64,000 nucleotides of DNA from Rhizobium sp. WSM4643 (GTDB taxonomy: Bacteria; Pseudomonadota; Alphaproteobacteria; Rhizobiales; Rhizobiaceae). The notes beneath the pieces are model-generated. The model saw nothing but the letters and a program-made list of their open reading frames with translations. It did no database searches and was not told the origin of the DNA. The position numbers and the translations under genes were made by a program. The stretch covers positions 434,001 to 498,000 of the forward strand of contig NZ_CP104040.1 in NCBI RefSeq assembly GCF_025152745.1. Direction: 5' to 3'. Position 1 is the stretch's first letter; each line of letters begins with the position of its first letter. This document shows, one piece after another, positions 20,654 to 39,108 of this stretch.

Positions 20654-21442
20654 CTATCGATTTCGTTTCACGAACTGACCGAGGCGGTTCACAAGCTTCG
20701 ATGCCCAGAACATGAGGGTCGAGGCCCTTAAGCCGTGGTCGGCAAGGGCACGCAGCACTTCCTTGTTCTGACGCGATATGTTCTGAATGTTTTTGTTTGT
20801 AGCGCCCCCCAAGCGCATCCTCACCAACACGCGGGGGATATAAAGGCTCCTGATGCGCGCGACTTCCAGAAATCGCATCATAAGTTCGACGTCGGCTGCC
20901 AGCCGATAACGCAGATCGAACGTCCCAAACCGTTCATAGATGCGACGCCGAACATAGAATGTAGGATGTGGCGGACACCAGCCGCGTCCAAAAGTACCGG
21001 GTTCAAACGCACAGGATTTCCAATAACGGACCTTGCGATCGGGATGCTGGTTGGAAACATAGATGAGATCGCCATAGCAGCCATCATAGGCTTCATCGTC
21101 CAGCGCGGCCGCCACGGTTTCGAGGGAGTCACTGCTCTCGAAAGTGTCGTCCGCATTCAAGAAGCCGATGATGTCGCCGCTCGCAAGACCAATCCCCTTG
21201 TTCATGGCCTCATAGATACCTCCGTCCCGTCCCGAAAGTACGCGGCGGTTGTCCGCCGGCGCCAAAGCGATGATGGCGAGCGTCGAATCACTTGAGCCAC
21301 CGTCAATGATGATGTGCTCGAAATCACGGTAGGTTTGCGTGTCGATGGACCGCAGCGTCTCGGCAATGGTCCGCTCGGCGTTCCAGCAAACAGTGATGAG
21401 GCTTATCCGGGGAGTATGTCGATCGGCAGTGTTTGCGGCCAT
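20654..21442 (-). CDS. glycosyltransferase family 2
   Basis: 262 residues with a GT-A fold. The N-terminal ISLITVCWNAERTIAETLRSI, the IIIDGGSSDSTL motif and the DXD-like FLNADDTF are seen, followed by HPTFYVRRRIYERFG. It resembles WcaA/WbbD-type enzymes that add one sugar in O-antigen assembly. It is the last gene of the leftward polysaccharide cluster but is separated from the methyltransferase upstream by a 370-base gap. The anti-sigma gene converges on it with 43 bases between. Donor and acceptor are unknown. Confidence 0.88.
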   Translation of the reverse strand: MAANTADRHTPRISLITVCWNAERTIAETLRSIDTQTYRDFEHIIIDGGSSDSTLAIIALAPADNRRVLSGRDGGIYEAMNKGIGLASGDIIGFLNADDTFESSDSLETVAAALDDEAYDGCYGDLIYVSNQHPDRKVRYWKSCAFEPGTFGRGWCPPHPTFYVRRRIYERFGTFDLRYRLAADVELMMRFLEVARIRSLYIPRVLVRMRLGGATNKNIQNISRQNKEVLRALADHGLRASTLMFWASKLVNRLGQFVKRNR

Positions 21443-21813
21443 TTTGACGAGTGTCTTGCTTCCATTCTAAGGGGCGAAATCTGGCCAACCCGTAGCAGAC
21501 GGAAAGGCGGCGCCGCAATCCAGTACTGCAGATTATCCTTGATCAATGCTGGAGGTCCCTTGTCTTCGAAGAAAAAGCTGCGCAAGGGCATCTTGCTAGC
21601 CAGGGCTCGAGCACCGGCTCCTTCCTGAGCCCCTCGACATTTCGAAGCAACCTCTTCCGGTTCTTGACACGCCATACCTCATTGTATCCAGGCCTTGCGG
21701 CGTGATCTTGAACTGCACCCGCGCCCGCATATCCGCTCCTATGCAGTTGGAGCGTTCCGTTGAATTCTCCTACGTGCGATCGCCTGACCTTGCGGGAGAG
21801 CGGGCCGGAATTT
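21443..21813. other. intergenic gap with degraded coding look
   Basis: These 371 bases break an otherwise tightly packed operon. The minus strand has an open frame of about 90 codons (21403-21675) that includes KMPLRSFFFEDKGPP and NLQYWIAAPPFRLL. It looks like the tail of a lost protein, but it has no ribosome-binding site and runs into the next gene's start. I see no terminator. It may be the scar of a deleted gene. Confidence 0.4.
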
Positions 21814-22836
21814 CTAGATCGGCCTTAGCACGAAGAGAAGGCTGTCGCCCTTGCCCGCGGCATCCAGAATTCGATTGCCCAATCCCATCACCATCCCGAC
21901 CCCACGTGCGCCACGCGATAGGGCTACGTTCTTCAGCCGAATGAAGAACGGTGGCCTGACTTGGATTGCATCAGCATTGTGCGTCCAGGTGGATGATGAC
22001 TTGCCCTCCTGCTTCCGCTCGCGTGCGGTGCGTAATTGCAGGACCGACCAGAGATTAGGCGTAACCGTTCTGACGTTCTCGACCTTGTAACCAAACTTGC
22101 CGGCGAGTTTTGTAAAAGAGGTGCGGTTGAAATGATTTTGGTGATAGGGAATGTGCCAATTGATCCAGCGGTCTTTCCAGATCTTGTGATGAAACGAGCC
22201 CGTATTGGGGAACGCCATGATCACGCGACCTTGGGGGGTGAGACGTTCTCTTACCGCCTGCAGCATGGCCGAGGGATCCGGGACATGTTCGAGCACCTGA
22301 TTCAATACAATAAGGTCGAACTTCATGTCGGGAAAAGGCAGATCGTAAATTTTGCCGATATGGACTTGCAAGCCGAAGTGATCGGCAATCGTCCGTACAT
22401 TCGGATCGGCCTCAATCCCCCAGCTTTCGATACCTTTGTTCTTCATTTCGAGCAGCGAAATGCATGAGCCGCAACCGACATCCAGTACTTTCTCACCAGG
22501 CTGCGCCAGATAGTGGCCTTGATGATCGGTGCCGGCCATCCAACGATTGAAAGCGGCGAAAGGCTTGTTTACCAGCGCAGCTTCTCGCTCTATGGCGGAG
22601 AAATCAACTTCCCGGCGTGGATAATACGTACTGTAAAGCCCAGGTAGGTCCTCTTCCGTCAGCGGCGGTGTCGTCGTCATATGACCGCAAGACACGCATC
22701 TCTCGATCGAATAGACACCGGGGCAGCCGTATCGATCGTCGGATATGCGCTCGATAAATGTTTCCATATTCGAACCGCAGGCAATACACTGCATCTGATG
22801 ATCGCTCTTCATCGCGTCGTTATTGTCCTTTTTCAT
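21814..22836 (-). CDS. class I SAM-dependent methyltransferase with N-terminal zinc ribbon
   Basis: 340 residues from ATG 22836 (ATGA overlap with the upstream glycosyltransferase stop). The N-terminus has two CxxC pairs (CIACGS, CVSCGH), a zinc ribbon found in a group of sugar-cluster methyltransferases. The Rossmann core begins at about residue 110 with EKVLDVGCGSCISLLEM, then GIEADPNVR and DLIVLNQVLEHVPDPSAML. It probably methylates a sugar of the O-polysaccharide, or a terminal residue. The acceptor is unknown. Confidence 0.85.
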   Translation of the reverse strand: MKKDNNDAMKSDHQMQCIACGSNMETFIERISDDRYGCPGVYSIERCVSCGHMTTTPPLTEEDLPGLYSTYYPRREVDFSAIEREAALVNKPFAAFNRWMAGTDHQGHYLAQPGEKVLDVGCGSCISLLEMKNKGIESWGIEADPNVRTIADHFGLQVHIGKIYDLPFPDMKFDLIVLNQVLEHVPDPSAMLQAVRERLTPQGRVIMAFPNTGSFHHKIWKDRWINWHIPYHQNHFNRTSFTKLAGKFGYKVENVRTVTPNLWSVLQLRTARERKQEGKSSSTWTHNADAIQVRPPFFIRLKNVALSRGARGVGMVMGLGNRILDAAGKGDSLLFVLRPI

Positions 22837-23690
22837 TTCTTCGCTCGCAGAGCATGGGCCGTCCGGATAATCATGAAGGCCCCCATGCGCAATGGCGCTG
22901 TCATCCGTTGCAAGGGTGTGCCGATCAAAGAATAGAACGCGACCCGCTGAAATACATTGTGGGGCGAGCGCCGGCCAAAATGTTTCTTCCACGAAGACGT
23001 ATTCGACACGTGAGCGCCGTAGACGGGCGGTGAATAAACTATGGCTTCGCTGGAAACAAGCAGTTGTACGCCCGTTCGCGCGAAGCGCATGGATATTTCG
23101 TAATCGGCCATATAATGCGGCAGGAAACGCGGACGCATGGTTCCATGCCGTTTGAACAGTTCCGCGGGAAACAACGTTCCGCGACCGCTGAGCGCATCCG
23201 CCTGATAGAGCGGCTTAGGATTCCGGCGCTCCCCTTCGCTCAACTCGGCGAGAATGTCCCATACTGCAATGCGATTTATGTTCAAGCGCGGTCCAACGCC
23301 CGTCAAAGGCGGGTCGCTCTCCTCCTCGTGAACGACGCTGCCGACAATAGCATCCCGATTTTCGCGTGAACACCGTATCAATGTCTCGACATAGGTCGGG
23401 CCAAACCACGTGTCATTGTTGACGAACAGGATGTAGTCTTCGGGGCCGCAGTCGGGCAGAACCCGCTTCAGGCCGACTTCTATGGCTCCGCCCCACCACA
23501 GATTGCCGTCGCCTCTTATGCTCGTCACGTCAGGCTGCGTCGCGAGGAACTCAGCCGTTTCATCGGTGGAGCCGTCATCGATGATAACAATTCGAATATT
23601 GTCGACAACCGTTTGGGCCCTCAAGGCCGCGATGACTTTGCGAGTGTGCTCAAGTCGGTTGAAGACCGGAATTAGGACGTTTACACGCAT
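22833..23690 (-). CDS. glycosyltransferase family 2
   Basis: 285 residues from ATG 23690; a TTG ten codons earlier is possible. GT-A features: MRVNVLIPVFNRLEHTRKVI, VIIDDGSTDETAEFL, and YILFVNNDTWFGPTYVE (the DXD region is NND-like). LWWGGAIEVGLK and FLPHYMADYEISMRFARTG resemble rhamnosyltransferase-like enzymes. It overlaps the next gene by 4 bases. A 121-base gap separates it from the MptE-like gene upstream. Confidence 0.87.
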   Translation of the reverse strand: MRVNVLIPVFNRLEHTRKVIAALRAQTVVDNIRIVIIDDGSTDETAEFLATQPDVTSIRGDGNLWWGGAIEVGLKRVLPDCGPEDYILFVNNDTWFGPTYVETLIRCSRENRDAIVGSVVHEEESDPPLTGVGPRLNINRIAVWDILAELSEGERRNPKPLYQADALSGRGTLFPAELFKRHGTMRPRFLPHYMADYEISMRFARTGVQLLVSSEAIVYSPPVYGAHVSNTSSWKKHFGRRSPHNVFQRVAFYSLIGTPLQRMTAPLRMGAFMIIRTAHALRAKK

Positions 23691-23811
23691 CAAATATTGT
23701 CGTCTTTCGTTACGAACCAACAGAAATCTGGCCGTTGCACAAAAGACACATCGGTGACAGCGAACCGCGCGTTTGTTCTATCAACCAGTATTGACGCAGG
23801 ATGAAGGCGCT

Positions 23812-24678
23812 TCATTCTTCGAACCAAGCCTGGAAAGGCCGCCTCTCAAATTCGTCCAGTGCTCCGCCGGGTGTGGAATTGACGATGCGGATACCATTCG
23901 ATTTGGCAATATTTGAGATGGCTCGATACTGCCGCCACAGTCGCGCCAGCTGTTGGAACTCATCGTGAAGGGTCCTCGTCAAGGTGCCGTCCGCATTTAC
24001 GGTGAAGTCTTTTCCCTTTTGCACCTTGAGGTCGAACGCGTATCTATAGGTTGACGACAGGAAACGATCGTGGTCGACGCCGAGCAGGATGATCTCTTTG
24101 AAACCAAGATACATCGCTATCATCAAGGCCATCACCGGCACCGACTCGACACGAGGGACCGGTTGAGAGATATCGACGATTTCCTCTGATGTTCTTTCGT
24201 CGAAGCTTTCACCGAGCACGAGATACCGAACCGTTCGCCCTGAAAACAGATTGTGTTTTCGAACCAGCTCCGCTTCAGTGGAACTGAGAAACAGTTCCGC
24301 GGCGCCCAAGTGCGAATGCATCTCTTTAAACCAGTCGATCACATCCTCCGATGTCATCGATACGTAGGTAATTTGCGGAACACAATGATAACGAGACTGG
24401 AACTTGTCGAAATCGGAGTGCAGGTAACCATTGGAAACGGTTATAACGGTTTCGCCCTGAAGTTGCGACAGATCCAGGCCCTTGACGCTCGGGCCATTGC
24501 CTAAAATAAAACAGCGCTGCCCCGCGTGCAGACCAGCAAGCTGTCTATTTTCTGCCAGCGAACTCGCGACATCAGCAGAGAGATTGTGACGATTTTTTAG
24601 CCTGCGCTTCAGCTCATGCACACCATAGGGGAGCAGCATGGAGCCAAAGGTCAAAATCTTCCTCAAAGCTGCAGCCAC
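23812..24678 (-). CDS. MptE/DUF115-like protein, candidate glycosyltransferase
   Basis: 288 residues with a GTG start (24678) backed by a strong GAGGTGG five bases upstream. The core has CFILGNGPSVKGLDLSQL, an NGPS loop shared by the DUF115/MptE-like group and by CstI/Maf-type transferases that use CMP-nonulosonic acids. Later motifs are VESVPVMALMIAMYLGFKEIILLGVDHD. It sits directly beside nonulosonate-type synthesis genes, and its start overlaps the deacetylase gene by 16 bases. I infer it may transfer the cluster's CMP-activated sugar. The family assignment is fairly clear; the reaction is a guess. Confidence 0.65.
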   Translation of the reverse strand: MAAALRKILTFGSMLLPYGVHELKRRLKNRHNLSADVASSLAENRQLAGLHAGQRCFILGNGPSVKGLDLSQLQGETVITVSNGYLHSDFDKFQSRYHCVPQITYVSMTSEDVIDWFKEMHSHLGAAELFLSSTEAELVRKHNLFSGRTVRYLVLGESFDERTSEEIVDISQPVPRVESVPVMALMIAMYLGFKEIILLGVDHDRFLSSTYRYAFDLKVQKGKDFTVNADGTLTRTLHDEFQQLARLWRQYRAISNIAKSNGIRIVNSTPGGALDEFERRPFQAWFEE

Positions 24679-25295
24679 TTTACCACCTCAAAAACCTCCG
24701 CGTATTTTACACCGATGCGCTGGCCGGCATTCTCGGCTTCGTTGCGGAAGAAGCTCACCCATTTCCGCCCCGTGCGCTCCATCTCGGATTCATGGGCAAG
24801 GATCGCCTTCTCCTTCTGGTCCCAATGGGAGGTGATGTCGACGTAGAAATTCCCCCTGAAATCGACGGTCGAATGATACCAGTTGCTGCGGTACATCAGG
24901 AGGCGGGGCACATGGCGGCAGCTGTGCAGTGACGCCCGCGACAAGGCCAGATGGTCATGGTGGATGTCTCCGACCCAGTGGGTGTAAACCATATCGATCT
25001 TCAGATCCTGGACGAGCTTGAGGATCTCGATATTCAGCGGGTCGACGAATTCGATCTGGAGCGTTTTGAACTCGCCGCAGAACATTTTGTGGACGCCGAG
25101 AATTTCCATCGCGGCATCCGCTTCCGCTCTGGCGACCTGGCTGCTGCGCACGGACTGATCATACTGGTTTGAAAAGCCGGATACGGTCGCGACATAGACA
25201 TACACCGTGTCGCCGTTTACAGCATGACGTGCCAGTGCACCGCCACAGCCCAGTTCCACGTCGTCAAAATGGGCACCGATCGCGAGAATATTCAT
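24663..25295 (-). CDS. PIG-L/LmbE-family deacetylase
   Basis: 210 residues from ATG 25295, overlapping the WbqC-like gene stop (ATGA). The zinc site motifs are present: AIGAHFDDVELGCGG at the N-terminus and GDIHHDHLALSRASLHS in the middle. The family removes N-acetyl groups from GlcNAc-type sugars (PIG-L, MshB, BshB). In this cluster it could deacetylate a nucleotide sugar or a nonulosonate-like product and so allow other N-acyl groups. That is inference from context. Confidence 0.85.
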   Translation of the reverse strand: MNILAIGAHFDDVELGCGGALARHAVNGDTVYVYVATVSGFSNQYDQSVRSSQVARAEADAAMEILGVHKMFCGEFKTLQIEFVDPLNIEILKLVQDLKIDMVYTHWVGDIHHDHLALSRASLHSCRHVPRLLMYRSNWYHSTVDFRGNFYVDITSHWDQKEKAILAHESEMERTGRKWVSFFRNEAENAGQRIGVKYAEVFEVVKWLQL

Positions 25296-25993
25296 TTGCA
25301 ACTCCAGAGCAGGTCACGCGTGCCTGCAATACCACAATTCAGCAGTGTGTCGAGAATGCTGAGATAGGGCATGAACTCGCCGAAGGGCTGCGGATAGACG
25401 GGATGGACGAAATGCTGCCATTCGATCTCGATCCCGGCTGCCTCGAACACCTCAGACCGCATGTAGTCGCGCGCGCCCAGACCTGAGAGGTAACGCGTTG
25501 CTCCGACTTTCCGCAGCAGTTCGACAAGCAACTCATTCTTATGCCCCTCAGGGCTTAACGTGCTCGCCCGCACCGTCGGCATGGTTATCTCAAGCATCTC
25601 CAGAATGCCTTCGAGGAAATGCATGTTAAAATCGGCCAACAGCTCGAACCGCTTGCCGTAGAGGGCCTCGATACGGGGAAAGACCTCGCTCCAACCGGCA
25701 GACTTGCGATAATTTTCGCGAAGCAGGGAAAGGTTTTGGTCTATCCAGCCGGTGCCGGGCGCCAGTTCCACGGCATTGATCGCAGTGCCGAGACTTGGCT
25801 TTCTGATGCCAACGGTGAGCCACCGATCGCCCTGCGCCGTCTTTATCTTATCCCGATGCGTCCAGCTTTTGCTCGTGCCATGGACAAACTGAACGTGATC
25901 CAGAACGATATAGAGGTCGGCGTTCAGAAAACGCTGGAAAAAGCCGAGATATGAAGCGAAGTCTGGTTGATGGATAACCGCTGTAATGGTCAT
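25292..25993 (-). CDS. WbqC-family protein
   Basis: 233 residues. AVIHQPDFASYLGFFQRFLNADLYIVLDHVQF is the hallmark N-terminus of WbqC-like proteins; GTSKSWTHRDKIK and ARDYMRSEVFEAAGIEIEWQHF follow. WbqC proteins occur in O-antigen and nonulosonate-type clusters, but their biochemical role is not established. Both ends overlap neighbouring genes by 4 bases, so it is firmly part of the operon. Its position between the PseG-like and deacetylase genes suggests a step on the same sugar. Confidence 0.82.
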   Translation of the reverse strand: MTITAVIHQPDFASYLGFFQRFLNADLYIVLDHVQFVHGTSKSWTHRDKIKTAQGDRWLTVGIRKPSLGTAINAVELAPGTGWIDQNLSLLRENYRKSAGWSEVFPRIEALYGKRFELLADFNMHFLEGILEMLEITMPTVRASTLSPEGHKNELLVELLRKVGATRYLSGLGARDYMRSEVFEAAGIEIEWQHFVHPVYPQPFGEFMPYLSILDTLLNCGIAGTRDLLWSCK

Positions 25994-26955
25994 GCAGCCA
26001 ATCTTTCCAGCAAGTCGGCAACGCGGCCGACCCCGCCAAGGTCGACCTTGGTCATAGCAGTCTCGCTCATGCTCCGGATGGGGATCGGCGTTTCCAGGAT
26101 GCCGAGATCGAACGCCGAGTGATGCCCGGCAAAGAACGCCACTCCCAGATCTTCGAGCGCCCGCCCGACCGGGATTTCAAAAGGTTCGTTGGCGATCACC
26201 ACACACGGCAGGCCCGCCGCACAGGCTTCGAATGGGGTAACACCGCCGCCGGTAATCGCCAGATCGTGCCCATGCATCTCTGCCGCAAGCGATGGCACCT
26301 GGTTGAGCAGTTTGAACTGACCCGGTGCAGCGGTCGCGACGACCTCTTCAAGCTCCCTCATGTGTTGGAAGCTCGGGCCAGTGACGATGGTGACGGGAAA
26401 AGACTTGCTGCTCAGCCATTTGGCAACGCGGACGGTCACTCCGTAGGTATCGGCGCCGCCGAGCGTGACAAGGATCGATGCAAGGCTTTGCCGACGTCTG
26501 CGATAGCTAGCGATTTCAGGATTGAGTATCATATACTCCACCCCCAGCCGAACATCCTTGCCCTTGAGACCCTCGGTCTCTTCGAACAGGAGAGCGCAGA
26601 TATTCATGTCGGCAAGCTCCGCGCCATCACCACGATCATCAAAGGTAACGAGCTTTGCGCCCAAACGCTTAATCGCCTCGCTGTGGGATCGCTGCGTGTT
26701 CAGGCGGTCATTAATCCAGACTGAAGATGATGCATCGGGTTCAATAAAGCCATTCTCCCATCCGGTCACGGAGGCGAGATCATAAAGCGCCACATCAAAG
26801 CCGCGCTCTCGGATGACCCTCAACGAATTCGGATGATCGTTCGCTAAAAATAGGACCGGATGACCGCGTGAACGCAGTTCGGTGGCGAGCGTCAACGACC
26901 GAAACAGATGCCCCATGCCGCGTGCATGTGAACTTTCTATGCAGAAGACGAACAT
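25990..26955 (-). CDS. PseG-like UDP-sugar hydrolase/epimerase (nonulosonate pathway)
   Basis: 321 residues from ATG 26955 (overlaps the upstream gene by 19 bases). The GT-B-type fold shows CIESSHARGMGHLFRSLTLATEL, the PseG pattern around the catalytic His (GMGH), and ILVTLGGADTYGVT. The C-terminal motif is ITGGGVTPFEACAAGLPCVVI. PseG removes UDP from the 2,4-diamino-sugar before condensation with phosphoenolpyruvate. The next genes upstream are the cytidylyltransferase and the NeuB-like synthase, the usual partners. Confidence 0.8.
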   Translation of the reverse strand: MFVFCIESSHARGMGHLFRSLTLATELRSRGHPVLFLANDHPNSLRVIRERGFDVALYDLASVTGWENGFIEPDASSSVWINDRLNTQRSHSEAIKRLGAKLVTFDDRGDGAELADMNICALLFEETEGLKGKDVRLGVEYMILNPEIASYRRRRQSLASILVTLGGADTYGVTVRVAKWLSSKSFPVTIVTGPSFQHMRELEEVVATAAPGQFKLLNQVPSLAAEMHGHDLAITGGGVTPFEACAAGLPCVVIANEPFEIPVGRALEDLGVAFFAGHHSAFDLGILETPIPIRSMSETAMTKVDLGGVGRVADLLERLAA

Positions 26956-27614
26956 AGTCTGATCGCTTCTTCTGTCCCAACCCAGTTCCCACCCCCCCGC
27001 GCTGCCAGAGCACAAGCACGTCTCCAGTCTTCCTCAGTATCTACCGTCAGGCGCAGATTTGGGGATATTTTGGCTGGAGGCACATCGAGCTGGCCAATCT
27101 TGAACAACTCCGGCCGATCCGTGAAGTATTCATTCACGTGCTCGCGATGGTGCGGCAGCATCCCCTCTCGATGACTGCGTGAGAGCGCTTCGAACGTAAA
27201 TATCTCGGCGCCGACACCGATGGGCAACTGACCGAACGCGTGCGTGTAGTCGAATCCCTGCTTTTGGTGCAGGTCGATCAGCCTCTCCAACTCCTCGATA
27301 TCAGTGAAGGGATTGTCCGCCGTCAATCGCACGATATCCGACATCCCAAGCGATCTCGCACATTCGAAATAGCGATCGAGAACATCGGCCTCGTCGCCGC
27401 GAAAGCAGCTGACGCCGTGCTTGAGGCACCAAGTTTCGATAATGTCGTTCTCGCCGGCCGATGATGTCGCGACGACGATCTTGGCCGGCCGCTTCAGCAT
27501 CTGAAGCCTGCCAAGGACATGTGCGAGAAGCGGCTTGCCGGAAATGTCGCGAAGCACCTTTCCCGGCAATCGGGTGGATCCCATTCGCGCTTGGATGATG
27601 ATTCCAAGCCTCAC
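26937..27614 (-). CDS. SpsF-type cytidylyltransferase
   Basis: 225 residues from a GTG (27614) that overlaps the NeuB-like gene stop as GTGA. An earlier GTG at 27629 is possible. The N-terminus GIIIQARMGSTRLPGKVL is the nucleotide-binding motif of SpsF, related to CMP-KDO and acylneuraminate cytidylyltransferases; RLTADNPF follows at the metal site. It would activate the product of the NeuB-like enzyme with CTP. SpsF is less well characterised than NeuA/PseF, so the exact nucleotide is an inference. Confidence 0.82.
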   Translation of the reverse strand: MRLGIIIQARMGSTRLPGKVLRDISGKPLLAHVLGRLQMLKRPAKIVVATSSAGENDIIETWCLKHGVSCFRGDEADVLDRYFECARSLGMSDIVRLTADNPFTDIEELERLIDLHQKQGFDYTHAFGQLPIGVGAEIFTFEALSRSHREGMLPHHREHVNEYFTDRPELFKIGQLDVPPAKISPNLRLTVDTEEDWRRACALAARGGGNWVGTEEAIRLCSSSA

Positions 27615-28627
27615 GCCAGATCGCTCCACTGGAGGACGGCATCGCCATCGAGATCCCTTATCAATCGTCGCCCGGCGAGAGTGTCGAGATGCTTAGGCTC
27701 GATTCCCGTCCCCGGCCGCTTAACCGAAATGTCGCCGGGGGAGATGAATTCACCGGCTTTGAGCGGTCGATTGAGAACGACGCTCTTGCGGTTATTCAAT
27801 CTGGTTGTCGCCTCGCTTGCAGCCGGTTCCTTGCGACCACTGCCTTTCATGACCTCGAACGCACGTATCGCATCCACAAGCCATTTCATTTCTGCCGGAT
27901 CGGCCGAGAGCATGTGGTCGGGACCATCGGCGGCCTTGTCGTAGGTGAAATGCCGCTCGATGACCCGGGCGCCCATCGCGACCGCACAAAGGCTCGCGAC
28001 AGGGTTCAATGTATGGTCGGAATAGCCAACGTCGAGATCCGGAAACGCCTCCATCATCGTTTGCATTGCACGCAGGTTCACATTTTCCGGATGCGTCGGA
28101 TAGCTTGTGATGGCGTGCAACAGGATGAGCTTCTGATTACCCGCCTCCTTGATTGCGGCAACGGATTCCCGAACCTCTTCGAGCGTCGACATCCCCGTCG
28201 ACAGGATTATCGGCTTGCCCGTTTTTGCCAGATAGCGAAGAAAGGGAATGTTGACTGCATCGTCCGAACCCACCTTGTGGGCACCAACCCCGCACTTCTC
28301 CAGCAGATCGACATCCGTTTCGTGTGAGGGCGACGAAAACCAGTCCAGCCCGTGCTCCTCGGCATAGCGGAAAACCGCTTCGTGAAGCTCGTGACCGATT
28401 TCATATTTGCGGAAAAGCTCGAATTGCGAGGTAACGCCGGTGTTTTCCATATCGAACATGGCGTTGCGGCTCGACAGGGTCTCTGCCCGATAAGTCTGGA
28501 GCTTGACAGCGTCTACGCCGGACGACTTTGCCTCGTCGATCAGCCGTCTTGCCTGGTCAAAAGTCGTAAAATTCCCGCCGATTTCGGCGATAATATAACA
28601 CCGGTCAGGTCGGTAGTTCCGGAACAT
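27611..28627 (-). CDS. NeuB-family nonulosonic acid synthase with SAF domain
   Basis: 338 residues. A TIM-barrel domain covers about 1-270: YIIAEIGGNF, DAVKLQTYRAETL, ILSTGMSTLEEV, the phosphoenolpyruvate-site region AITSYPTHPENVNLRAM, and GYSDHTLNPVA. A C-terminal SAF (antifreeze-like) domain covers about 275-338, with ISPGDISVKRPGTGI. The enzyme condenses phosphoenolpyruvate with an amino-hexose to a nine-carbon 2-keto-3-deoxy acid. The usual YPTP is YPTH here. It lies at the head of a tight block with SpsF-, PseG-, WbqC- and LmbE-type genes. The substrate stereochemistry cannot be assigned. Confidence 0.88.
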   Translation of the reverse strand: MFRNYRPDRCYIIAEIGGNFTTFDQARRLIDEAKSSGVDAVKLQTYRAETLSSRNAMFDMENTGVTSQFELFRKYEIGHELHEAVFRYAEEHGLDWFSSPSHETDVDLLEKCGVGAHKVGSDDAVNIPFLRYLAKTGKPIILSTGMSTLEEVRESVAAIKEAGNQKLILLHAITSYPTHPENVNLRAMQTMMEAFPDLDVGYSDHTLNPVASLCAVAMGARVIERHFTYDKAADGPDHMLSADPAEMKWLVDAIRAFEVMKGSGRKEPAASEATTRLNNRKSVVLNRPLKAGEFISPGDISVKRPGTGIEPKHLDTLAGRRLIRDLDGDAVLQWSDLA

Positions 28628-28743
28628 CTGCTACTCCCGCAATTCACTATACAGCCGGCGTTCCAATAGCGGTAACACAGCTCAGTTCAGCTCTGTGCGA
28701 TGTCATCCCGCACACGACCGGTATACAACTCCCGGCTGCTTCT

Positions 28744-29814
28744 CTATTTTCCGATTTCCTGAGCCCGATCCACGTAATTTCGGACAACCACTTTCCGGCC
28801 GCAGATTTCGGTCGGCTCGTCATCCGTCAGGCGAGGCAGGTAGCATCGCCGGCATACTTCGCTTTTCAAGAAGCCCTGCGGTTCTTTGTGCAAGGCGCGG
28901 ACTGCATTCATTTTTTCGCCGTGCCAAATCTGGTGGACCGTCTCCGTCGTCGCGTCACCAATGACTTCGCGATTCTCCTCGTCGTTCGAGCACTTCATCA
29001 CAAGCCCGTCGGCCCCGATAACGAGGCGCTGGTATTGCTGTGGGCAGGTGAAATTATCCAGATATTGAACGTCAGAATCGTTTCCGAGGTAGTCGATCAG
29101 CGGATTGAAGGCGACAAGATCCACGTGAGGCGCAAAGGTTTCATAATAGAGATCCGGATTTTCCCTGATTGCTGGCCAGATGCCCTGCACCTTAATGACC
29201 GGACGGTGGAGCCCGCGCTCGTCTTTGTACTTCTTGATGTCCTTGATCTTGTCGAGTAGCGCCTCGAACTTGATCGGCTTGCGGATCTTTTCGTAGGTCT
29301 CACCGGTGCCGTCGATCGAAACGGTGATCCAGTCGATGCCGGCATCGACGAGCTGAGCGAAATAGTCTCTGTTGAGCTTGAAGCCGTGCGTCAGGGTCGA
29401 GACTTCCTTGATCCCACGGTCCTTGGCATAGCGCACACAGTCGGCGAAGCGCTTGTGCAATGTGGCCTCGCCCCGCAGCGACAGACGGATCGCAGGAACC
29501 TTGCCGCCGATCTCATCGATGATACGGCAGTAGAGATCCCAGTCCATCCTCGTCGTGTTCACACTTTTCTTGAACTCGTCGCTGATCGTATAGCACATCG
29601 GGCAGCGCAGATTGCAGATCGACGCCAGCTCGAGATCGACCAGCAGCGGATAGTCCGAAACCTGCTGGTTCAGGGCATATTCCGACCATTTGCGACGGTA
29701 ATCCGCGTATTCTGCTTCCCACCCTTCGCCCCGGAATTTGTCGAACGCGGCTTCGCGCTCGTCCGTGTCCATCGAGTAGTTGCCCTTGTTGATCGGAACG
29801 TAACGTTCGTTCAA
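28744..29814 (-). CDS. radical SAM/SPASM-type protein in the polysaccharide operon
   Basis: 356 residues from a TTG at 29814, chosen because AAGGAG lies at the proper distance; ATG 29772 is the alternative. The radical SAM cluster motif CNLRCPMC has cysteines at 67, 71 and 74. RLSLRGEATLH and ITVSIDGTGETYEKI are standard elements of the barrel. The C-terminal part has LVIGADGLVMKCSNDEE and CRRCY, as in SPASM-like auxiliary cluster regions. Such enzymes do hydrogen-abstraction chemistry (dehydration, epimerisation, dehydrogenation). A member between a NeuB-like gene and a sugar epimerase suggests unusual sugar chemistry. The substrate is unknown. Confidence 0.85.
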   Translation of the reverse strand: MNERYVPINKGNYSMDTDEREAAFDKFRGEGWEAEYADYRRKWSEYALNQQVSDYPLLVDLELASICNLRCPMCYTISDEFKKSVNTTRMDWDLYCRIIDEIGGKVPAIRLSLRGEATLHKRFADCVRYAKDRGIKEVSTLTHGFKLNRDYFAQLVDAGIDWITVSIDGTGETYEKIRKPIKFEALLDKIKDIKKYKDERGLHRPVIKVQGIWPAIRENPDLYYETFAPHVDLVAFNPLIDYLGNDSDVQYLDNFTCPQQYQRLVIGADGLVMKCSNDEENREVIGDATTETVHQIWHGEKMNAVRALHKEPQGFLKSEVCRRCYLPRLTDDEPTEICGRKVVVRNYVDRAQEIGK

Positions 29815-29815
29815 T

Positions 29816-30661
29816 TTACGACTCCTTCATCATCGCGCGCATCCCGGCCGGCAGATCCCATTCCGGCCGCCATCCGAGAACCGTGCGAGCCCGCGTGATA
29901 TCGGCCCGCACGTCAGGTATTTCATTCCGCCGAACTGTGCAAGATGACACCACAGGTAGAGCAGTGCCGGCAGCTTCTTGCAAGATGTCGATTATTTCCT
30001 GCACCGAATACGACATTCCGGAGCCGATATTGATACAATGGTAGCCTTCCGCGACGTCCATGGCCTTGGTAAAGGCGCTCAGGACATCTTCAACAAAGAT
30101 ATAGTCACGCCGGGGACTGAGATCCAGGACCTGTATTTCCTGCTTGGTTCGTATCTGGTTCAGAAGCGTCGGTATCAGAAATTCGGGGCGCTGCCCTGCG
30201 CCGTATATATTGAAAAGACGCAATACCACCACCGGTATCTGCTCGTGCGTGGCGGCGAACTCACAAAGCTGTTCGGCAAGATGTTTGGAAAGAGCATAAG
30301 GGTTGTTCGGCCTGACCAGATCGCTTTCACGGATCGGCAGCCGGTCAGGCACTCCGTAAACATAGGCGCTTGCGAACACGAGTTTGGCCTTGTGCCGCTT
30401 GCACCAGTTCAAAGCATGGTGCGTTCCGAGGACGTTGGCGGCCGTGAAACTCGGTCCTTGGCTCCAGCTATCTGGAACAAATGTCCTGCCGGCAAGGTGA
30501 AACAGCGTGCGCGCCGGGGGAAGCTCCTGCCAAACCTTTTCTTCGCTTATATCACCATGCGTTCGGTCAAGCGCAAGCACGTCAAAACCAGCCTGCTCAA
30601 GCCGTCTGACCAGACGACTCCCGAGAAAACCGCCAGCACCGGTGACGATGGCATCAACCAT
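29816..30661 (-). CDS. NAD-dependent sugar epimerase/dehydratase (extended SDR)
   Basis: 281 residues. TGAGGFLGSRLVRRLE at the N-terminus binds NAD. FASAYVYG is the catalytic Ser region and YALSKHLAEQL the YxxxK. RLFNIYGAGQRPEFLIP and NIGSGMSYSVQEII place it with UDP-glucose/GDP-sugar epimerases and reductases. It overlaps the nucleotidyltransferase by 8 bases and is followed 1 base later by the radical SAM gene. It likely acts on the nucleotide sugar formed by the LegB-like dehydratase or a related intermediate. Confidence 0.85.
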   Translation of the reverse strand: MVDAIVTGAGGFLGSRLVRRLEQAGFDVLALDRTHGDISEEKVWQELPPARTLFHLAGRTFVPDSWSQGPSFTAANVLGTHHALNWCKRHKAKLVFASAYVYGVPDRLPIRESDLVRPNNPYALSKHLAEQLCEFAATHEQIPVVVLRLFNIYGAGQRPEFLIPTLLNQIRTKQEIQVLDLSPRRDYIFVEDVLSAFTKAMDVAEGYHCINIGSGMSYSVQEIIDILQEAAGTALPVVSSCTVRRNEIPDVRADITRARTVLGWRPEWDLPAGMRAMMKES

Positions 30662-31367
30662 TCAGGAACCTGGAGCGCATGGATTCGAACTGCTCGATCG
30701 CCAAGGCATAATCGTCAGGCCGTCCGATATCGAGCCAATAGCCGCCAAAATCTCGAACCGTGGCCGGCTTGCCGGCCGCAAGAAGTTCAAGCATCAACTG
30801 ATCAAAGCCATAGGCGCCACCTTGTGGTATGTGCTCGACGGCCCTCGAAGACACCATGTAGACGCCCATGCTGACTTTGTATTCGGCCGTCGGTTTCTCT
30901 CGAAAACCGGTCAGCAGCCCGGCCTCGCCGGTGTCCAGAACGCCATAGTCTATGCGATGCTGGCGCGTCTTGGATGAGATCGTGAATATATTCCCGTCGC
31001 GGACGTGCGCATCATGAAAATCGGCATAGTTGAGATCCGTCAGAATGTCGCCGTTCATCACCAGGAAATTCTCCGGCAGATCCTTTATCAGCCGCAGCGG
31101 CCCCATGGTGCCGAGAGGCTCGTCCTCGAGCGAATAGTCGATGCGGATACCCCACTTGTCGCCATCCTGGAAGAAAGCCTTGATCAGCTCGGCCTGGTGG
31201 TTGACGGCAAGTGTTATATGCTGAAATCCGCCTGATATCAGCTGACGAATGATCACCTCAAGAATAGGATAGTCGCCGATCGGCATCAGAGGCTTCGGAA
31301 GCACGACGGTATAGGGCCGCAACCGCGTTCCCATCCCGCCCGCCAGAATGACTGCGCGCCTAGACAT
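30654..31367 (-). CDS. sugar nucleotidyltransferase
   Basis: 237 residues. The signature AVILAGGMGTRLRPYTVVLPKPLMPIGDYP is the nucleotide-binding loop; FLVMNGDILTD holds the metal-binding Asp, and GFREKPTAEY follows. It is a single-domain NDP-sugar pyrophosphorylase, like the catalytic half of PtmE or RmlA-like enzymes, without CBS or left-handed helix domains. It makes an NDP-hexose for this pathway. Legionaminate routes use a GDP-GlcN-forming enzyme of this group, so GDP-sugar formation is possible but not shown. Confidence 0.86.
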   Translation of the reverse strand: MSRRAVILAGGMGTRLRPYTVVLPKPLMPIGDYPILEVIIRQLISGGFQHITLAVNHQAELIKAFFQDGDKWGIRIDYSLEDEPLGTMGPLRLIKDLPENFLVMNGDILTDLNYADFHDAHVRDGNIFTISSKTRQHRIDYGVLDTGEAGLLTGFREKPTAEYKVSMGVYMVSSRAVEHIPQGGAYGFDQLMLELLAAGKPATVRDFGGYWLDIGRPDDYALAIEQFESMRSRFLNG

Positions 31368-32340
31368 TGAAGATATCCGCCTTGTATCTCGCCAGATTCT
31401 GCGGCTGACGCAGCCAGTCGATCGTCGCTTTCAGACCATCTTCCAAGCTGTAACGCGGCGAAAATCCTGTCAGAGACTTGATCAGGCTGTTGTCGCAGCA
31501 CAGACGCTCCACTTCGCTATTTGCCGGACGCAAACGCTGTTCGTCGCATTCGATCTCCACGCTGACGCCGATGATGTCGGCGATCAGGCGAACGGTATCG
31601 CCGATCGATATCTCGCTGCCCGAGCCGATATTGACCGTCTGTCCGATGGCTTCGTCGCAGGCCGCGAGCGCCAGAAAGCCGTCGCATGTATCCTGGACGA
31701 AATTGAAATCCCTGGTGGGCGAGAGCGCACCAAGCTTCAGCGTCGTTCGTCCACTCAGAAGCTGTGAAATCACAGTCGGAATAACCGCCCTTGCAGATTG
31801 TCGCGGGCCGAAAGTGTTGAAGGGCCGTGCGATCGTCACCGGTAGGTCAAAACTCGAATGATAACTGTATGCCATCGCGTCAGCACCGATTTTTGACGCC
31901 GAATAGGGCGACTGTGCCTGCAGCGGATGACTTTCGCTGATTGGGACAAAGCGAGCGGTTCCGTAGACCTCGCTGGTCGAGGTCTGAATGACGCGGCCAA
32001 CGCTGGCATCGAGAGCGCCCTGAAGTACATTCAACGTGCCATTAATGTTGGTGTCCACATAGCTGGACGGCGCCTGATAGGAATAGGGAATAGCGATGAG
32101 AGCGGCCAGATGAAATATCGTGTCAACGCCTTTTGCGATGGCACGCATTTGCGCCGGGTCGCGAACGTCGCCAAGAATGACCTCGAACTCGCCGCGATAT
32201 TCAGACTGGTCCAGCCAGCCCCAGCTGGAAAACGAGTTGTACTGGCAAAGGGCGCGGACTTCGACGCCTGCCCTTGTCAGGGTTTCAACGAGATGGGAGC
32301 CGATGAAGCCGTCCGCGCCGGTCACAAGTACTTTCTTCAT
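31360..32340 (-). CDS. LegB-like NDP-N-acetylglucosamine 4,6-dehydratase (extended SDR)
   Basis: 326 residues. VLVTGADGFIGSHLVETL, YNSFSSWGWLD, HLAALIAIPYSY, STSEVYGTARFVPI, the YxxxK in YSASKIGADAMAY, and RPFNTFGPRQSARAVIPT match the LegB type of legionaminic-acid 4,6-dehydratases very closely. The enzyme would make the 4-keto-6-deoxy sugar that starts nonulosonate synthesis. Its ATG overlaps the Wzt gene stop (ATGA). It overlaps the nucleotidyltransferase by 8 bases, a natural pair. Substrate nucleotide (UDP or GDP) is undetermined. Confidence 0.85.
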   Translation of the reverse strand: MKKVLVTGADGFIGSHLVETLTRAGVEVRALCQYNSFSSWGWLDQSEYRGEFEVILGDVRDPAQMRAIAKGVDTIFHLAALIAIPYSYQAPSSYVDTNINGTLNVLQGALDASVGRVIQTSTSEVYGTARFVPISESHPLQAQSPYSASKIGADAMAYSYHSSFDLPVTIARPFNTFGPRQSARAVIPTVISQLLSGRTTLKLGALSPTRDFNFVQDTCDGFLALAACDEAIGQTVNIGSGSEISIGDTVRLIADIIGVSVEIECDEQRLRPANSEVERLCCDNSLIKSLTGFSPRYSLEDGLKATIDWLRQPQNLARYKADIFNV

Positions 32341-33656
32341 TTCAATAAGCCCTCAGAATCGCGGCGGTAGAGCATCTTTACATCCCAGGGGAGCTGGATT
32401 GCCGAAATTGATGGTTTTCGTTGCTGGCCCAGCATCTGGATGATCCCGACATTGTCTTCGACTTCGAACCGAATACCCTCAACCACCGAATAGATCGAAA
32501 AACGGCTGGAAATGCCGGCGCGGAGATAAAAGGTTCCGGTGTTCAACAAGCCAGCCGGAATGATTACTCGCGCCCGATAATAACCTGGAGGCCGGGTGTC
32601 GAGGCGGCTTACGTCGAGTTCCGGATCGGACAGGCTGATGATCGGGGAATAACCATCCTCCATCATGATCTGCAGCCCGACGGAAAGCCCTGTCAGTGGC
32701 TCGCGCAGTTCATACTCCATCTCGACGATAAAATTCTTCGTGAGTTCAACGGTTTGTGCTAGCTCGCCGTCTTCGTTTCGGATGGAAAGGCGAGAGATCA
32801 CCGCCTTGCCGTCGACATCCTGTGGGTCGATTTCAAAATCTATCTTCCCGCTCAGTTCAGGCCGGTCGAGATAGGCGCGAATGACATCGGACGTACTGCC
32901 CACCGCAGCAACGCGACCGTCGGACAACAGAATGGATCGAGGGCAAAGACTGCTTACAGCCGTCATATTATGGCTGACGAACATGATTGTTCGGCCCGCC
33001 TTGGTCACCTCCCGCATTCGGCCCATACATTTGTTCTGGAAGTTGACGTCGCCAACTGCCAGAACCTCATCGACAAGAAGTATTTCGGGTTCCAGATGTG
33101 CCGCAACGGAAAAGGCAAGTCGAACATACATGCCTGAAGAGTAACGTTTGACTGGGGTGTCGATGAATTCGCCGATTTCTGCGAACTCGACAATTTCATC
33201 GAACTTCGTGCGAACTTCGGAGTGTGTCATTCCAAGAATGGCACCGTTTAAGTAAACGTTTTCGCGGCCCGTGAGTTCGGGGTGGAAGCCGGTTCCGACT
33301 TCCAAGAGGCTCGCAATCCTGCCTCGAATGCCAATATAGCCCGAGGTTGGACGCGTTATGCGAGACATCAGCTTCAGAAGGGTCGACTTGCCTGCCCCAT
33401 TGCGACCGATGACGCCAACGATATCGCCGCGGGAAATCTCGAAGGAGACATCATCCAGGGCGTGAAAAATATCGTTCTTAAGCCGAGCCTTGTTCTGTCT
33501 GTCGGAAGCGTAATCCGAGACGGAGGCGTTGGGGTCCGGCAGATTGCGGAACCGCGCCCACCAGCTTTGGAGGTCACGGTACAAGGTGCCGTGATTGATG
33601 ATACCCAAGCGATAGTGTTTGCTGACATTCTCGGCGTGTATAACGATATCATTCAT
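32337..33656 (-). CDS. wzt: O-polysaccharide ABC exporter ATPase with carbohydrate-binding tail (Wzt)
   Basis: 439 residues from ATG 33656, sharing one base with the Wzm stop (TGATG). Walker A GRNGAGKST at about 84-92, signature YSSGMYVRLAF, Walker B ILLVDEVLAVGD. After about residue 270 comes a beta-rich Wzt C-terminal domain (VGLQIMMEDGYSPI, GYYRARVIIPAGLLN) that recognises the chain's terminal modification. A Wzt of this long type implies that the polymer is finished by a specific cap, such as a methyl group or a special sugar, before export. Confidence 0.92.
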   Translation of the reverse strand: MNDIVIHAENVSKHYRLGIINHGTLYRDLQSWWARFRNLPDPNASVSDYASDRQNKARLKNDIFHALDDVSFEISRGDIVGVIGRNGAGKSTLLKLMSRITRPTSGYIGIRGRIASLLEVGTGFHPELTGRENVYLNGAILGMTHSEVRTKFDEIVEFAEIGEFIDTPVKRYSSGMYVRLAFSVAAHLEPEILLVDEVLAVGDVNFQNKCMGRMREVTKAGRTIMFVSHNMTAVSSLCPRSILLSDGRVAAVGSTSDVIRAYLDRPELSGKIDFEIDPQDVDGKAVISRLSIRNEDGELAQTVELTKNFIVEMEYELREPLTGLSVGLQIMMEDGYSPIISLSDPELDVSRLDTRPPGYYRARVIIPAGLLNTGTFYLRAGISSRFSIYSVVEGIRFEVEDNVGIIQMLGQQRKPSISAIQLPWDVKMLYRRDSEGLLK

Positions 33657-34576
33657 CAAACGGTATCCATAGCGGTTGCCTCAGCCCGCGCAAAAAGTAT
33701 CAAGCCGCCAATTATAATAGTCAGAGTGGCCGCGACATTCGCCAGGCAAATGCTCAGAGGAAGCGGCGACGCGTCGAAAAGTGCCCAACGGAATACCTGA
33801 ACCGGAGTCGTCATCGGGTTGAGGTAGTAAAACCATTGATATCGTTCGGGAACCTGGCTGAAAGCATAGACGACGGGTGTCGCATACATCCAAAGCTGCG
33901 TAACGAAACCGACGGCATAAACCAGGTCACGATATCGAACTGTTAGCGCGGAAACCAAGAGTCCCATTCCCACACCAAGCGTTGCAACGTATAGCAAAAT
34001 CAATGGTGTCGCGAAAACGAAACGCAGGCTGATCACTATAGCATCCTGGCTAAGCCAGAGAACAAACGAGATCGTAAGCAGAAGCGTGAATTGGATGGCA
34101 AATGCGACCAGGCCGCTCATCGCGACTGCGAGTGGTACGACTAGCCGGGGGAAATACACTTTTCCAAACAAGTTCGAGTTTTTCGAAAATGTTTCTGAGT
34201 TATTGGTGAGGCAAGCTGAGAAATAATTCCAGATAATGGTGCCGGACATATAAAAGACAAGCGGGGAAATTCCATCGGTGGAGAGATTGGCAATCTTTCC
34301 GAAGACGACGTAATAGGTGATCGTCGTCAGTATCGGTTGTATGAGATACCAAACCGGTCCAAGCACGGTTTGCTTGTAGAATGTCGTGAAATCTCTTTTG
34401 AAGAACATCCAGATAAGTTCACGATATTTCCACGCAGTCGTCAGCCCGACGCTGATGGTGCCGGACGGCTTGATGACTATATCCCAGGGTTCGGTGCCGC
34501 TTTCCCTTTCCTGTTTTGTCACGTGACCTGTCATATTAATGCGCTCAAACTCTCCGTTAGCCGTTGCTCGTGCCAT
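33656..34576 (-). CDS. wzm: O-polysaccharide ABC exporter permease (Wzm)
   Basis: About 306 residues from ATG 34576; ATG 34534 is an alternative and neither has a strong ribosome-binding site. ABC-2-type permease with six membrane segments; the family motif VLGPVWYLIQPILTTITYYVVFGKIA precedes helix 1-2 and LNPMTTPVQVFRWALF lies near the end. With Wzt it exports the completed undecaprenyl-linked O-chain across the inner membrane. No Wzx flippase or Wzy polymerase is present, so the cluster uses the ABC-dependent route. Confidence 0.9.
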   Translation of the reverse strand: MARATANGEFERINMTGHVTKQERESGTEPWDIVIKPSGTISVGLTTAWKYRELIWMFFKRDFTTFYKQTVLGPVWYLIQPILTTITYYVVFGKIANLSTDGISPLVFYMSGTIIWNYFSACLTNNSETFSKNSNLFGKVYFPRLVVPLAVAMSGLVAFAIQFTLLLTISFVLWLSQDAIVISLRFVFATPLILLYVATLGVGMGLLVSALTVRYRDLVYAVGFVTQLWMYATPVVYAFSQVPERYQWFYYLNPMTTPVQVFRWALFDASPLPLSICLANVAATLTIIIGGLILFARAEATAMDTV

Positions 34577-34619
34577 ATTTTCTAGGGCCTGAGGGGACCG
34601 CATGGACCGACGCCATGTA

Positions 34620-35831
34620 TCACGCGACTCGATCGAGGACACGCCCCAAAATTTCTCTCAGACGGTGGTCGAAATCTTCTTGCTTCCACAAGGAGGCTCT
34701 TTCAAGCCCCTTTTTGATCAAAGAGGAACGTAGGTCTTCATCTTCCCACAGGCGGCTCATTGCCCCTTGTATTTCCTCGACGGATTGCGGCGAGAAATAA
34801 AGCGCTGCGTCACCGCACTGTTCCCGCATACCATACTTGTCTGATATCAAGACGGGACAACCGCACACCATCGCTTCAAGGGGCGGAATGTTTGTCGGGC
34901 CAAAAAAAGTCGGCATGACCAACCCTAAGGCACGACGATAAAACCCAGCCAGATCCGAATCCGGCACATAGCCGACGAAGTGAACCGCTTGGGATAGCCC
35001 GAGCTCGCTTGCCATCGTTTTGGCGGCCGCATATTCGCGCTTTGTGTTGCCCGCCAAGACCAGTTCCATGTCCGGATGCGTCCTGCGCGCGGCTGCCAGC
35101 GCTTGTATGAGCCGCAAGTGATTCTTGTGAGGCCAGAATTGCGCCGGATAAAAATAGAATTTTTCCGGAAGTCGGTAGCGTTCGGCGAAGGCGGACCTCT
35201 CGACCGAATCTGTAAGATAGATCGGAGCGATATAAGGCAGCGGATATATGTGATCTTCTGGCGTGCCGTAGCTTTCCATGACATGCCGCCGCCCGGTTTC
35301 GGAATCGACGAGCACGGCAGCGCTCTGGTTCGCAAGGTGACGGAACCGGCTTTCTCTCAGTTGAAAGCGCAACCAGCTTCCGGCTTCTGGAAAGCTGCGT
35401 TCATATCTATGCATCAAATCGTGAACGGTTGCGATCGAGGGCTGCTTGATCTGCCAGGTCAGGGCGTCTTGAGCCGGAAAAATCCACAGATCACATTGGA
35501 GAGATGCCAATTCCCGCACGATTGGGTTCACCCATCTCGCGACGACGCGCGCTACGGACCCAGGCAGAACCATGAACAGCTTGGCAAGTGTCTCGCCCCG
35601 CTTCCAGTGCTGCAGCGGGACGGCCTTCAGCGGGCTGGCATCAAGTTCAGAGCGCCAGGCTTCGTCCCCATAGGCAACGATGACCTCCACTTCCGTGCCG
35701 TCGATTGAAGACAGGGCCTGCACGAGGCTTTGCGCGTACTGGAACATACCACCGGCATGGCGGCTTACTCCGAGATAGAAGCCAATCCTCTTCCGACGCA
35801 AGGTAATTCGGCTGTCCAAATGTATCGCCAA
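34620..35831 (-). CDS. glycosyltransferase, GT4 family
   Basis: 403 residues with a putative TTG start at 35831, three bases after the previous gene's stop; the true start is uncertain because no ATG lies near. GT-B fold: YLGVSRHAGGMFQYAQSL near the N-terminus, FYFYPAQFWPHKNHLRL, and the donor-site FFGPTNIPPLEAMVCGCPVL. It is a close paralogue of the GT4 at 39109-40305, sharing the PAQFWPHKNH motif. Mannosyltransferase activity is common in this type but unproven. Confidence 0.87.
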   Translation of the reverse strand: MAIHLDSRITLRRKRIGFYLGVSRHAGGMFQYAQSLVQALSSIDGTEVEVIVAYGDEAWRSELDASPLKAVPLQHWKRGETLAKLFMVLPGSVARVVARWVNPIVRELASLQCDLWIFPAQDALTWQIKQPSIATVHDLMHRYERSFPEAGSWLRFQLRESRFRHLANQSAAVLVDSETGRRHVMESYGTPEDHIYPLPYIAPIYLTDSVERSAFAERYRLPEKFYFYPAQFWPHKNHLRLIQALAAARRTHPDMELVLAGNTKREYAAAKTMASELGLSQAVHFVGYVPDSDLAGFYRRALGLVMPTFFGPTNIPPLEAMVCGCPVLISDKYGMREQCGDAALYFSPQSVEEIQGAMSRLWEDEDLRSSLIKKGLERASLWKQEDFDHRLREILGRVLDRVA

Positions 35832-35834
35832 CAG

Positions 35835-37711: not shown

Positions 37712-38142
37712 TCGGCATCCTTTATCTTCAGTTCGCGCACTGACGGTACAAATCGCGTCTTGTCGGATTCCCCGGCATAAGGCCCCTGCTTGACTTCGAT
37801 GATTTCAGCTTCTTCGATAATTTCAAAACCATGTCCGCCGAAGGCGAGCAGTATGACGTCGCCTGCGCGCAGTATGGCGCTTTCGTAATATTCCTGCGCG
37901 TCGGAATAGAAGTCCACGCGGACTACGCCCGACTTTATAAGCAGGACTTCCTTCGTGTAGAGAACCTCGCGCGCGACGGCGTTGTGAACATGGGGTTGGA
38001 TGACATAGCCCGTCGGTCGCTTCATATAGGCGAGTTGCTGCGAAAATTCGTCCGGCGTGAAGAATTGGATGCCATCGAACGTGTAGTTCGACCGCAATAT
38101 CATGGCCTGCAGTTCGCCACCGTTCGTGATCTTTTCTATCAT
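37708..38142 (-). CDS. cupin-fold protein
   Basis: 144 residues from ATG 38142 (GGAAAGAG upstream); a TTG five codons earlier is less likely. A single cupin barrel is suggested by IQPHVHNAVAREVLYTKEVLLIKSG and RAGDVILLAFGGHGFEI, with His residues that could bind a metal. Small cupins in O-antigen clusters include sugar 3,4-ketoisomerases and epimerases, and also proteins of unknown role. The His pattern is not that of RmlC. It precedes the aminotransferase (ATGA), so an NDP-ketosugar substrate is plausible. Confidence 0.72.
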   Translation of the reverse strand: MIEKITNGGELQAMILRSNYTFDGIQFFTPDEFSQQLAYMKRPTGYVIQPHVHNAVAREVLYTKEVLLIKSGVVRVDFYSDAQEYYESAILRAGDVILLAFGGHGFEIIEEAEIIEVKQGPYAGESDKTRFVPSVRELKIKDAE

Positions 38143-38170
38143 GTTTCTCTTTCCCAAATCGACCGATGCG

Positions 38171-39106: not shown

Positions 39107-39108
39107 GA

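Follow-up and report, generated by a model that had tools for sequence, protein, structure and literature searches.

Results

A conserved, probable variant of nonulosonic acid synthesis

Ten genes of Rhizobium sp. WSM4643, all on the minus strand at 23812-32340 of the window (the whole 64-kb stretch analyzed, i.e., 434001-498000 of contig 1 in an assembly of 6.44 Mb), constitute a real, conserved variant of nonulosonic acid synthesis that is apparently undescribed. In order, they encode a LegB-type dehydratase, a nucleotidyltransferase, a short-chain dehydrogenase/reductase (SDR), a radical S-adenosylmethionine (SAM) enzyme, a NeuB-family synthase, a cytidylyltransferase, a PseG-like hydrolase, WbqC, a PIG-L deacetylase and an MptE-like protein. 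We consider it likely that the cassette makes a sialic-like sugar activated with cytidine monophosphate (CMP), while the complete proposal, a CMP-activated nonulosonic sugar with a hydroxyl at carbon 7, re-acylation of the 5-nitrogen and a radical oxidation, stands at about even chances. Position, strand and families of all ten open reading frames (ORFs), as given in a preliminary description of this DNA, were borne out by an ORF check and by Pfam and NCBIfam scans. The same description knew of no pathway with this set of enzymes, and none was found among the open-licence papers listed, although one may be described elsewhere. Among these papers we likewise found no account of a radical SAM step in nonulosonic acid synthesis; in PMC6309461, the single listed paper with both terms, "radical SAM" denotes a heme-utilization enzyme. 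Two candidate prior descriptions were discarded, as a glycan paper on Candidatus Accumulibacter does not contain the word "radical" in its text and a Clostridium paper contains neither "radical SAM" nor "WbqC".

The block is compact, seven of its nine internal junctions being overlaps. These had been described as mostly of 4 bases, which holds for just one of them (PseG-WbqC); from the LegB end onward the other junctions measure -8, -8, +1, +116, -19, -79, -10 and -16, and the cytidylyltransferase/PseG overlap of -79 shrinks to about -19 if PseG starts at ATG 26955. A 4-base overlap also marks the border between wzt and legB, where the block runs unbroken into the upstream transporter genes wzt and wzm (32337-34642), and glycosyltransferase and methyltransferase genes flank cassette and transporter on either side. 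The G+C content of the cassette region is 55.9%, vs. 60.4% in the part of the window outside 20654-40305.

The grouping recurs well beyond this strain. A single scan of species genomes, seeded with 17 aligned radical SAM proteins, gave 73 loci, fetched by this protein alone, in which gene presence was scored by translated search within the fetched flank at set score limits, several loci lying near contig ends. The radical SAM gene was accompanied by genes for NeuB at 65 loci, PseG at 56, the cytidylyltransferase at 54, WbqC at 50, PIG-L at 45, LegB and the nucleotidyltransferase at 44 each, the SDR at 42 and the MptE-like protein at 33. The preliminary description had proposed a genome-neighborhood search as a check, and since the same nine other enzyme genes recur together at 32 of the 73 loci (21 of the 62 outside 11 Rhizobium loci), their grouping exceeds chance. 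Three further loci lack only the SDR among the nine, and in five of the 32 full loci the weakest cassette member is at 30-35% identity. The exact order LegB-NTP-SDR-rSAM-NeuB-CTP-PseG-WbqC-PIG-L-MptE is kept at 21 of the 73 loci, 10 of them outside Rhizobium, and rearrangements are seen in others. Labels of the loci cover several Proteobacteria classes, Nitrospira, Nitrospina, Chlorobi, Bacteroidetes, Lachnospiraceae, Elusimicrobia, cyanobacteria, two archaea and others, many records being metagenome bins whose individual taxon labels may be wrong. We regard the block as a transferable biosynthetic cassette. With the E-value limits applied, 24 of the 148 genus genomes have the radical SAM protein, as do 3 of 398 sampled over the phylum, a patchy distribution as expected of surface-polysaccharide genes. 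Contigs labeled as archaeal carry cassette genes in one case (L060, a Nitrosotalea bin) and the radical SAM gene in another (L061, a Thermoplasmata bin), by either cross-domain transfer or misbinning.

Core enzymes and the slot of the SDR

The nonulosonate-type core recognized earlier (synthase, CMP-transferase, PseG-like hydrolase and LegB) is supported by the family scans. The LegB-type NDP-GlcNAc 4,6-dehydratase (31360-32340; GDP_Man_Dehyd/Epimerase) reaches 515.1 bits against TIGR04180, over the cut-off of 475. The NeuB-family synthase (27611-28627), the sole PF03102 match in the genome, carries NeuB and SAF domains both over gathering (280.1 and 41 bits), and scores below the cut-offs of its subfamilies NeuB_NnaB (335, cut-off 399.65) and PseI (280.7, cut-off 340.25). 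The cytidylyltransferase (26937-27629; CTP_transf_3, 111.5 bits), to which CMP activation is assigned, similarly stays below the equivalog cut-offs of the PseF and KdsB models. The PseG-like nucleotide-sugar hydrolase (25990-27015, with its start probably at ATG 26955) had no Pfam match in the family scan and scored 117.6 bits against TIGR03590 (cut-off 153.55); it aligns across the GxGH motif with the solved UDP-sugar hydrolase 3hbm at an E-value of 0.003. The sugar-1-phosphate nucleotidyltransferase (30654-31367; NTP_transferase, 130.8 bits) is probably a guanylyltransferase, its best NCBIfam model being mannose-1-phosphate guanylyltransferase (135.6 bits, cut-off 440) and its solved relatives including such enzymes, with a UTP-glucose-1-phosphate uridylyltransferase as the best; its role may resemble that of PtmE.

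The closest solved structures to the SDR (29816-30661; Epimerase, 154 bits) are MoeE5 and GDP-6-deoxy-D-mannose reductase, and we propose it as a 4-keto reductase, with an epimerase as the alternative. At three loci (L060, L063 and L065) its place is taken by a DegT aminotransferase together with an acyl- or formyltransferase; because the enzymes replacing it act on 4-keto sugars and the amines derived from them in known pathways, the SDR most simply reduces the 4-ketone. The replacement DegT has PseC as best model, below cut-off, in L060 and L065, and was assigned by similarity in L063, while its partner is a GNAT acyltransferase in L060 (family scan) and L063 (similarity) and a formyltransferase in L065. 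Identity of these loci to the window is 39-41% for NeuB, 67-77% for PIG-L, 62-69% for the nucleotidyltransferase and 61% for LegB; the radical SAM protein (49-53%) and WbqC (42-43%) are both also below most SDR-type loci.

A second variable position is the 116-base gap between the radical SAM and NeuB genes (28628-28743, no strand), an optional slot for tailoring genes in relatives. No ORF of at least 80 amino acids occupies it in the 11 Rhizobium loci, whereas elsewhere it holds a hexapeptide transferase (at least L016, L017, L020, L032 and L033), a methyltransferase (L022, L023, L024, L028 and L034) or an acyltransferase (L018), six of these eleven assignments coming from family scans and five from similarity clustering; a DegT with an acyltransferase also occurs in the gap of relatives. 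The absence of an acetyltransferase, previously regarded as a peculiarity, is confirmed among the ten genes; it is not odd in itself, as the SDR fills the step of aminotransferase and acyl- or formyltransferase in L060, L063 and L065. In relatives, an acetyltransferase is no more than an optional addition, as the hexapeptide transferase of the gap.

Alternatively, the pathway might be an ordinary legionaminic- or pseudaminic-type one, with aminotransferase, acetyltransferase and 2-epimerase supplied elsewhere in the genome (e.g., by the DegT gene at 36602-37711) and the radical SAM, PIG-L and WbqC proteins as decorators. LegB exceeding its cut-off is in agreement with this, and so is the rank of that DegT protein as best LegC-family match in the genome, yet its 330-332 bits fall short of the LegC cut-off of 420, and its identity, 93% in L011, drops to 34-36% in the remaining ten Rhizobium loci, where the DegT proteins are different ones. 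Moreover, the 99.4% complete genome gave no match to the 2-epimerase family PF02350 (NeuC, LegG, WecB type), whereas 11 of 14 control genomes had one, the search for 2-epimerases covering this family alone, and the preliminary description makes no mention of this genome-wide absence; no LegH acetyltransferase is among the ten cassette genes, to which the search for acetyltransferases was confined; and the best PseB score in the genome is 176.8 bits (61.6 for the cassette LegB) vs. a cut-off of 407.75. We therefore regard an ordinary pathway as quite improbable. The DegT gene was also dismissed as the cassette's own aminotransferase, being part of a separate flanking module that is not conserved with the cassette. 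This module (35835-38157, minus strand) comprises a methyltransferase, the DegT and a 149-amino-acid protein, cupin-like by eye and with no Pfam match, and recurs in L011 and, less well conserved, in L027 and L062.

The radical SAM enzyme

The radical SAM gene (28744-29814) encodes a BtrN-like twitch/SPASM enzyme whose nearest named record, from Rhizobium ruizarguesonis UPM1133, is 99% identical at the protein level. It has the CX3CX2C motif and four cysteines for one auxiliary cluster, which align with those of BtrN, and in 53 sequences (that of the window plus 52 that come from other than the 11 Rhizobium loci) C67, C71, C74, C257, C275, C321 and C324 are kept in at least 97%. C126, invariant in 17 close relatives, was rejected as an extra catalytic cysteine with conservation below 88% in the larger set. 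Natural fusions link the enzyme to the SDR (24 proteins), to NeuB and to PseG among the 120 matches listed, a listing biased by a query that was itself a NeuB fusion.

We propose that the enzyme oxidizes a sugar hydroxyl by two electrons, in the manner of BtrN. It could instead act as an epimerase on a carbon of the ring or chain, for instance the one LegG would invert, so that the product would be a stereoisomer and not an oxidized sugar. Known radical epimerases use a cysteine as hydrogen donor, and beyond the seven cluster ligands no cysteine is kept at 88% or more in the 53 sequences; BtrN also scores higher, and the radical SAM protein is further found beside DUF4910 and PseF/PseG-like genes, a setting that may have no need of a 2-epimerase. 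An epimerase is accordingly unlikely in our view. A substrate in the amino-acid or acyl substituent rather than in the carbon skeleton of the sugar would recall the anSME-type enzymes, which oxidize serine or cysteine. The fusions are, however, to the sugar-skeleton enzymes SDR, NeuB and PseG, and the same matches included no fusion to WbqC or PIG-L, DUF4910 having been outside that test; action on the substituent is thus doubtful, and oxidation of a sugar hydroxyl remains the reading that we prefer.

At ten loci (L038, L039, L044, L046, L047, L048, L051, L054, L061 and L064) a protein of roughly 330 amino acids lies beside DUF4910 and the radical SAM gene, for which no family match was obtained in L054 (Pfam, NCBIfam) or in L038 and L061 (NCBIfam). 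A second, B12-binding radical SAM protein was found in L061 by family scan, and proteins similar to it at 23-40% identity in L058, L070, L071, L073, L074 and L076.

The deacetylase and WbqC

The PIG-L/LmbE N-deacetylase (24663-25301) belongs to PF02585 (67.3 bits over 28.2), resembles BshB in aligning with TIGR04001 (BshB1) over nearly full length at 81.3 bits, below the cut-off of 182.5, and has the top median identity among cassette genes in both sets compared. WbqC (25292-25993; 211.8 bits), from a family called functionally uncharacterized in a passage of PMC5532660, is proposed as an ATP-dependent ligase or acyltransferase for the freed amine. The radical SAM, deacetylase and WbqC genes had been noted as unusual extras; all three are present, and the latter two are best read as one deacylation and re-acylation module rather than as unrelated oddities. 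When WbqC was compared with the BshC family PF10079, only PF08889 was found for it; a relation of the two by sequence was rejected, as hhalign gave a probability of 0.6% with four BshC sequences and 0.3% with an unrelated control pair (WbqC and the MptE-like protein). Sequence search retrieved no solved relative of WbqC (one row, E 0.6), and all Foldseek rows had E-values of 0.025 or worse.

Transfer and export

The product of the last gene (23812-24678) has MptE-like/DUF115 as its best Pfam match, at 26.2 bits below the gathering score of 34.6, and is a candidate CMP-nonulosonate glycosyltransferase. A profile of 15 such proteins matched alpha-2,3- and 2,3/8-sialyltransferases (E 7e-5 to 1.7e-4, the best being 2p2v at 7e-5) with the GNGPS motif aligned, the single-sequence search giving E 0.011; we take the matched enzymes to be CstI and CstII of Campylobacter, and the likeness presumably falls in GT42. 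In the profile search the solved MptE family appeared only at E 0.096, and a pterin enzyme was discarded despite the Pfam match; the protein is more likely the glycosyltransferase adding the CMP-sugar, for which it is the natural candidate.

The neighboring O-polysaccharide ABC transporter consists, on the same strand, of the ATPase Wzt with a C-terminal Wzt_C domain (32337-33659; ABC_tran 76.4 bits, Wzt_C 30.7 bits) and the permease Wzm (33656-34642; ABC2_membrane 71.9 bits), and this linkage leads us to infer that the sugar is placed on the O-antigen. The Wzt C-terminal domain is present in exactly 24 of the 148 genus genomes, the same that have the radical SAM protein, and high-identity wzm is confined to these as well (460-722 bits vs. 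at most 167.3 in 54 other genomes with a match): transporter and cassette travel as a block. Compatibly with the proposed pathway, the sugar might form a conserved chain end, whatever the repeat unit, and be recognized there by the Wzt C-terminal domain prior to export. This would fit the shared 24 genomes, the similar identity of the domain (72-75%) in the 11 Rhizobium loci despite their differing flanking glycosyltransferase genes, and its position next to the cassette at further loci, that of Herbaspirillum (L018) among them. Nonetheless, block inheritance alone explains the pattern, given the wzm control, which weakens the case made by the domain for a sugar at the chain end; moreover the domain occurs at only 20 of the 73 loci, with none beside cassettes in Gram-positive records, and its identity to the window is 90-96% in three of the 24 genomes and just 72-77% in 20. 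Recognition of this sugar by Wzt as a chain end is offered as no more than a suggestion, possible rather than probable.

Elsewhere in the window, a minus-strand group at 15573-18449 (type III polyketide synthase of chalcone-synthase-like type, ICMT-family methyltransferase and FAD oxidoreductase) resembles a phenolic-lipid operon. A plus-strand pair at 40896-42908, in which an SDR gene comes after one for a GDP-mannose 4,6-dehydratase-like protein, perhaps supplies a GDP-6-deoxyhexose for the same O-chain.

Discussion

Proposed pathway and its implications

What the data show are the gene families, their conserved order, module swaps, natural fusions and the lack of the classical 2-epimerase family; the reactions proposed here, the order in which PIG-L, WbqC and the radical SAM enzyme would act and the site of attachment are all inferred. 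The nucleotidyltransferase would make NDP-GlcNAc, with GDP as the probable nucleotide, which LegB would convert to a 4-keto-6-deoxy sugar; reduction of the 4-ketone by the SDR would leave the later carbon 7 with a hydroxyl in place of an N-acyl group. The radical SAM enzyme may then oxidize a hydroxyl of the sugar, the PseG-like enzyme release the nucleotide, NeuB condense the hexose with phosphoenolpyruvate and the cytidylyltransferase activate the product. PIG-L would strip the 5-N-acetyl group and WbqC, acting like BshC, attach an amino acid or a comparable acid to the amine thus freed, after which the MptE-like protein would transfer the sugar to the O-polysaccharide and Wzm/Wzt export the latter.

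Nonulosonic acids govern the recognition of bacterial surfaces by hosts, symbiosis partners and phages. If the proposal is true, the WbqC family gains a concrete activity as BshC-like aminoacyl ligases, and the deacetylate-then-ligate chemistry of bacillithiol is reused for surface sugars; the conservation of the cassette allows testing enzyme by enzyme. More tentatively, the cassette may define a new class of nonulosonic acids that gene transfer has carried between bacterial phyla and perhaps into archaea, with a 7-hydroxyl, an aminoacyl swap by PIG-L and WbqC, a skeleton oxidized by the radical SAM enzyme and, in Rhizobium, a position at the O-chain end read by Wzt.

Comparison with known systems

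The pseudaminic pathway proceeds through PseB, C, H, G, I and F; the cassette shares with it the NeuB-family synthase and a putative PseG-like hydrolase, but has no PseC or PseH, and matches the PseB, PseF, PseG and PseI models only below cut-off. Legionaminic synthesis relies on LegB, C, H, G, I and F and needs LegC, LegH and LegG (as treated in part of PMC6137143). Common to it and the cassette are LegB over the family cut-off, the NeuB-family synthase and a cytidylyltransferase, whereas the cassette adds the SDR, radical SAM, PIG-L and WbqC proteins and uses a PseG-like hydrolase. BtrN, the twitch-type radical SAM dehydrogenase in the butirosin pathway, acts on an amino-cyclitol (a section of PMC9012708) and has the same fold and seven cluster cysteines as the cassette enzyme, which is about 21% identical over the aligned part and carries about 50 additional N-terminal residues.

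In the bacillithiol and mycothiol systems (BshB-BshC and MshB-MshC, outlined in a portion of PMC4360819) a PIG-L-type deacetylase is paired with a Rossmann-type ligase, as proposed for the cassette, BshC activity not yet having been demonstrated in vitro when that review appeared. The fold of WbqC may be closest to that of BshC, though with no relation at the sequence level and with BshC absent from the best 50 Foldseek rows, and the cassette lacks a BshA-type step. The same idea of an acyl exchange was put forward by the authors of PMC3068675, in the part concerning Cj1295 of Campylobacter jejuni, as a hypothesis in which the C5 acetamido group is removed and another acyl put there; compared with it, the cassette employs PIG-L instead of an aminopeptidase-like deacylase and adds WbqC and the radical SAM enzyme.

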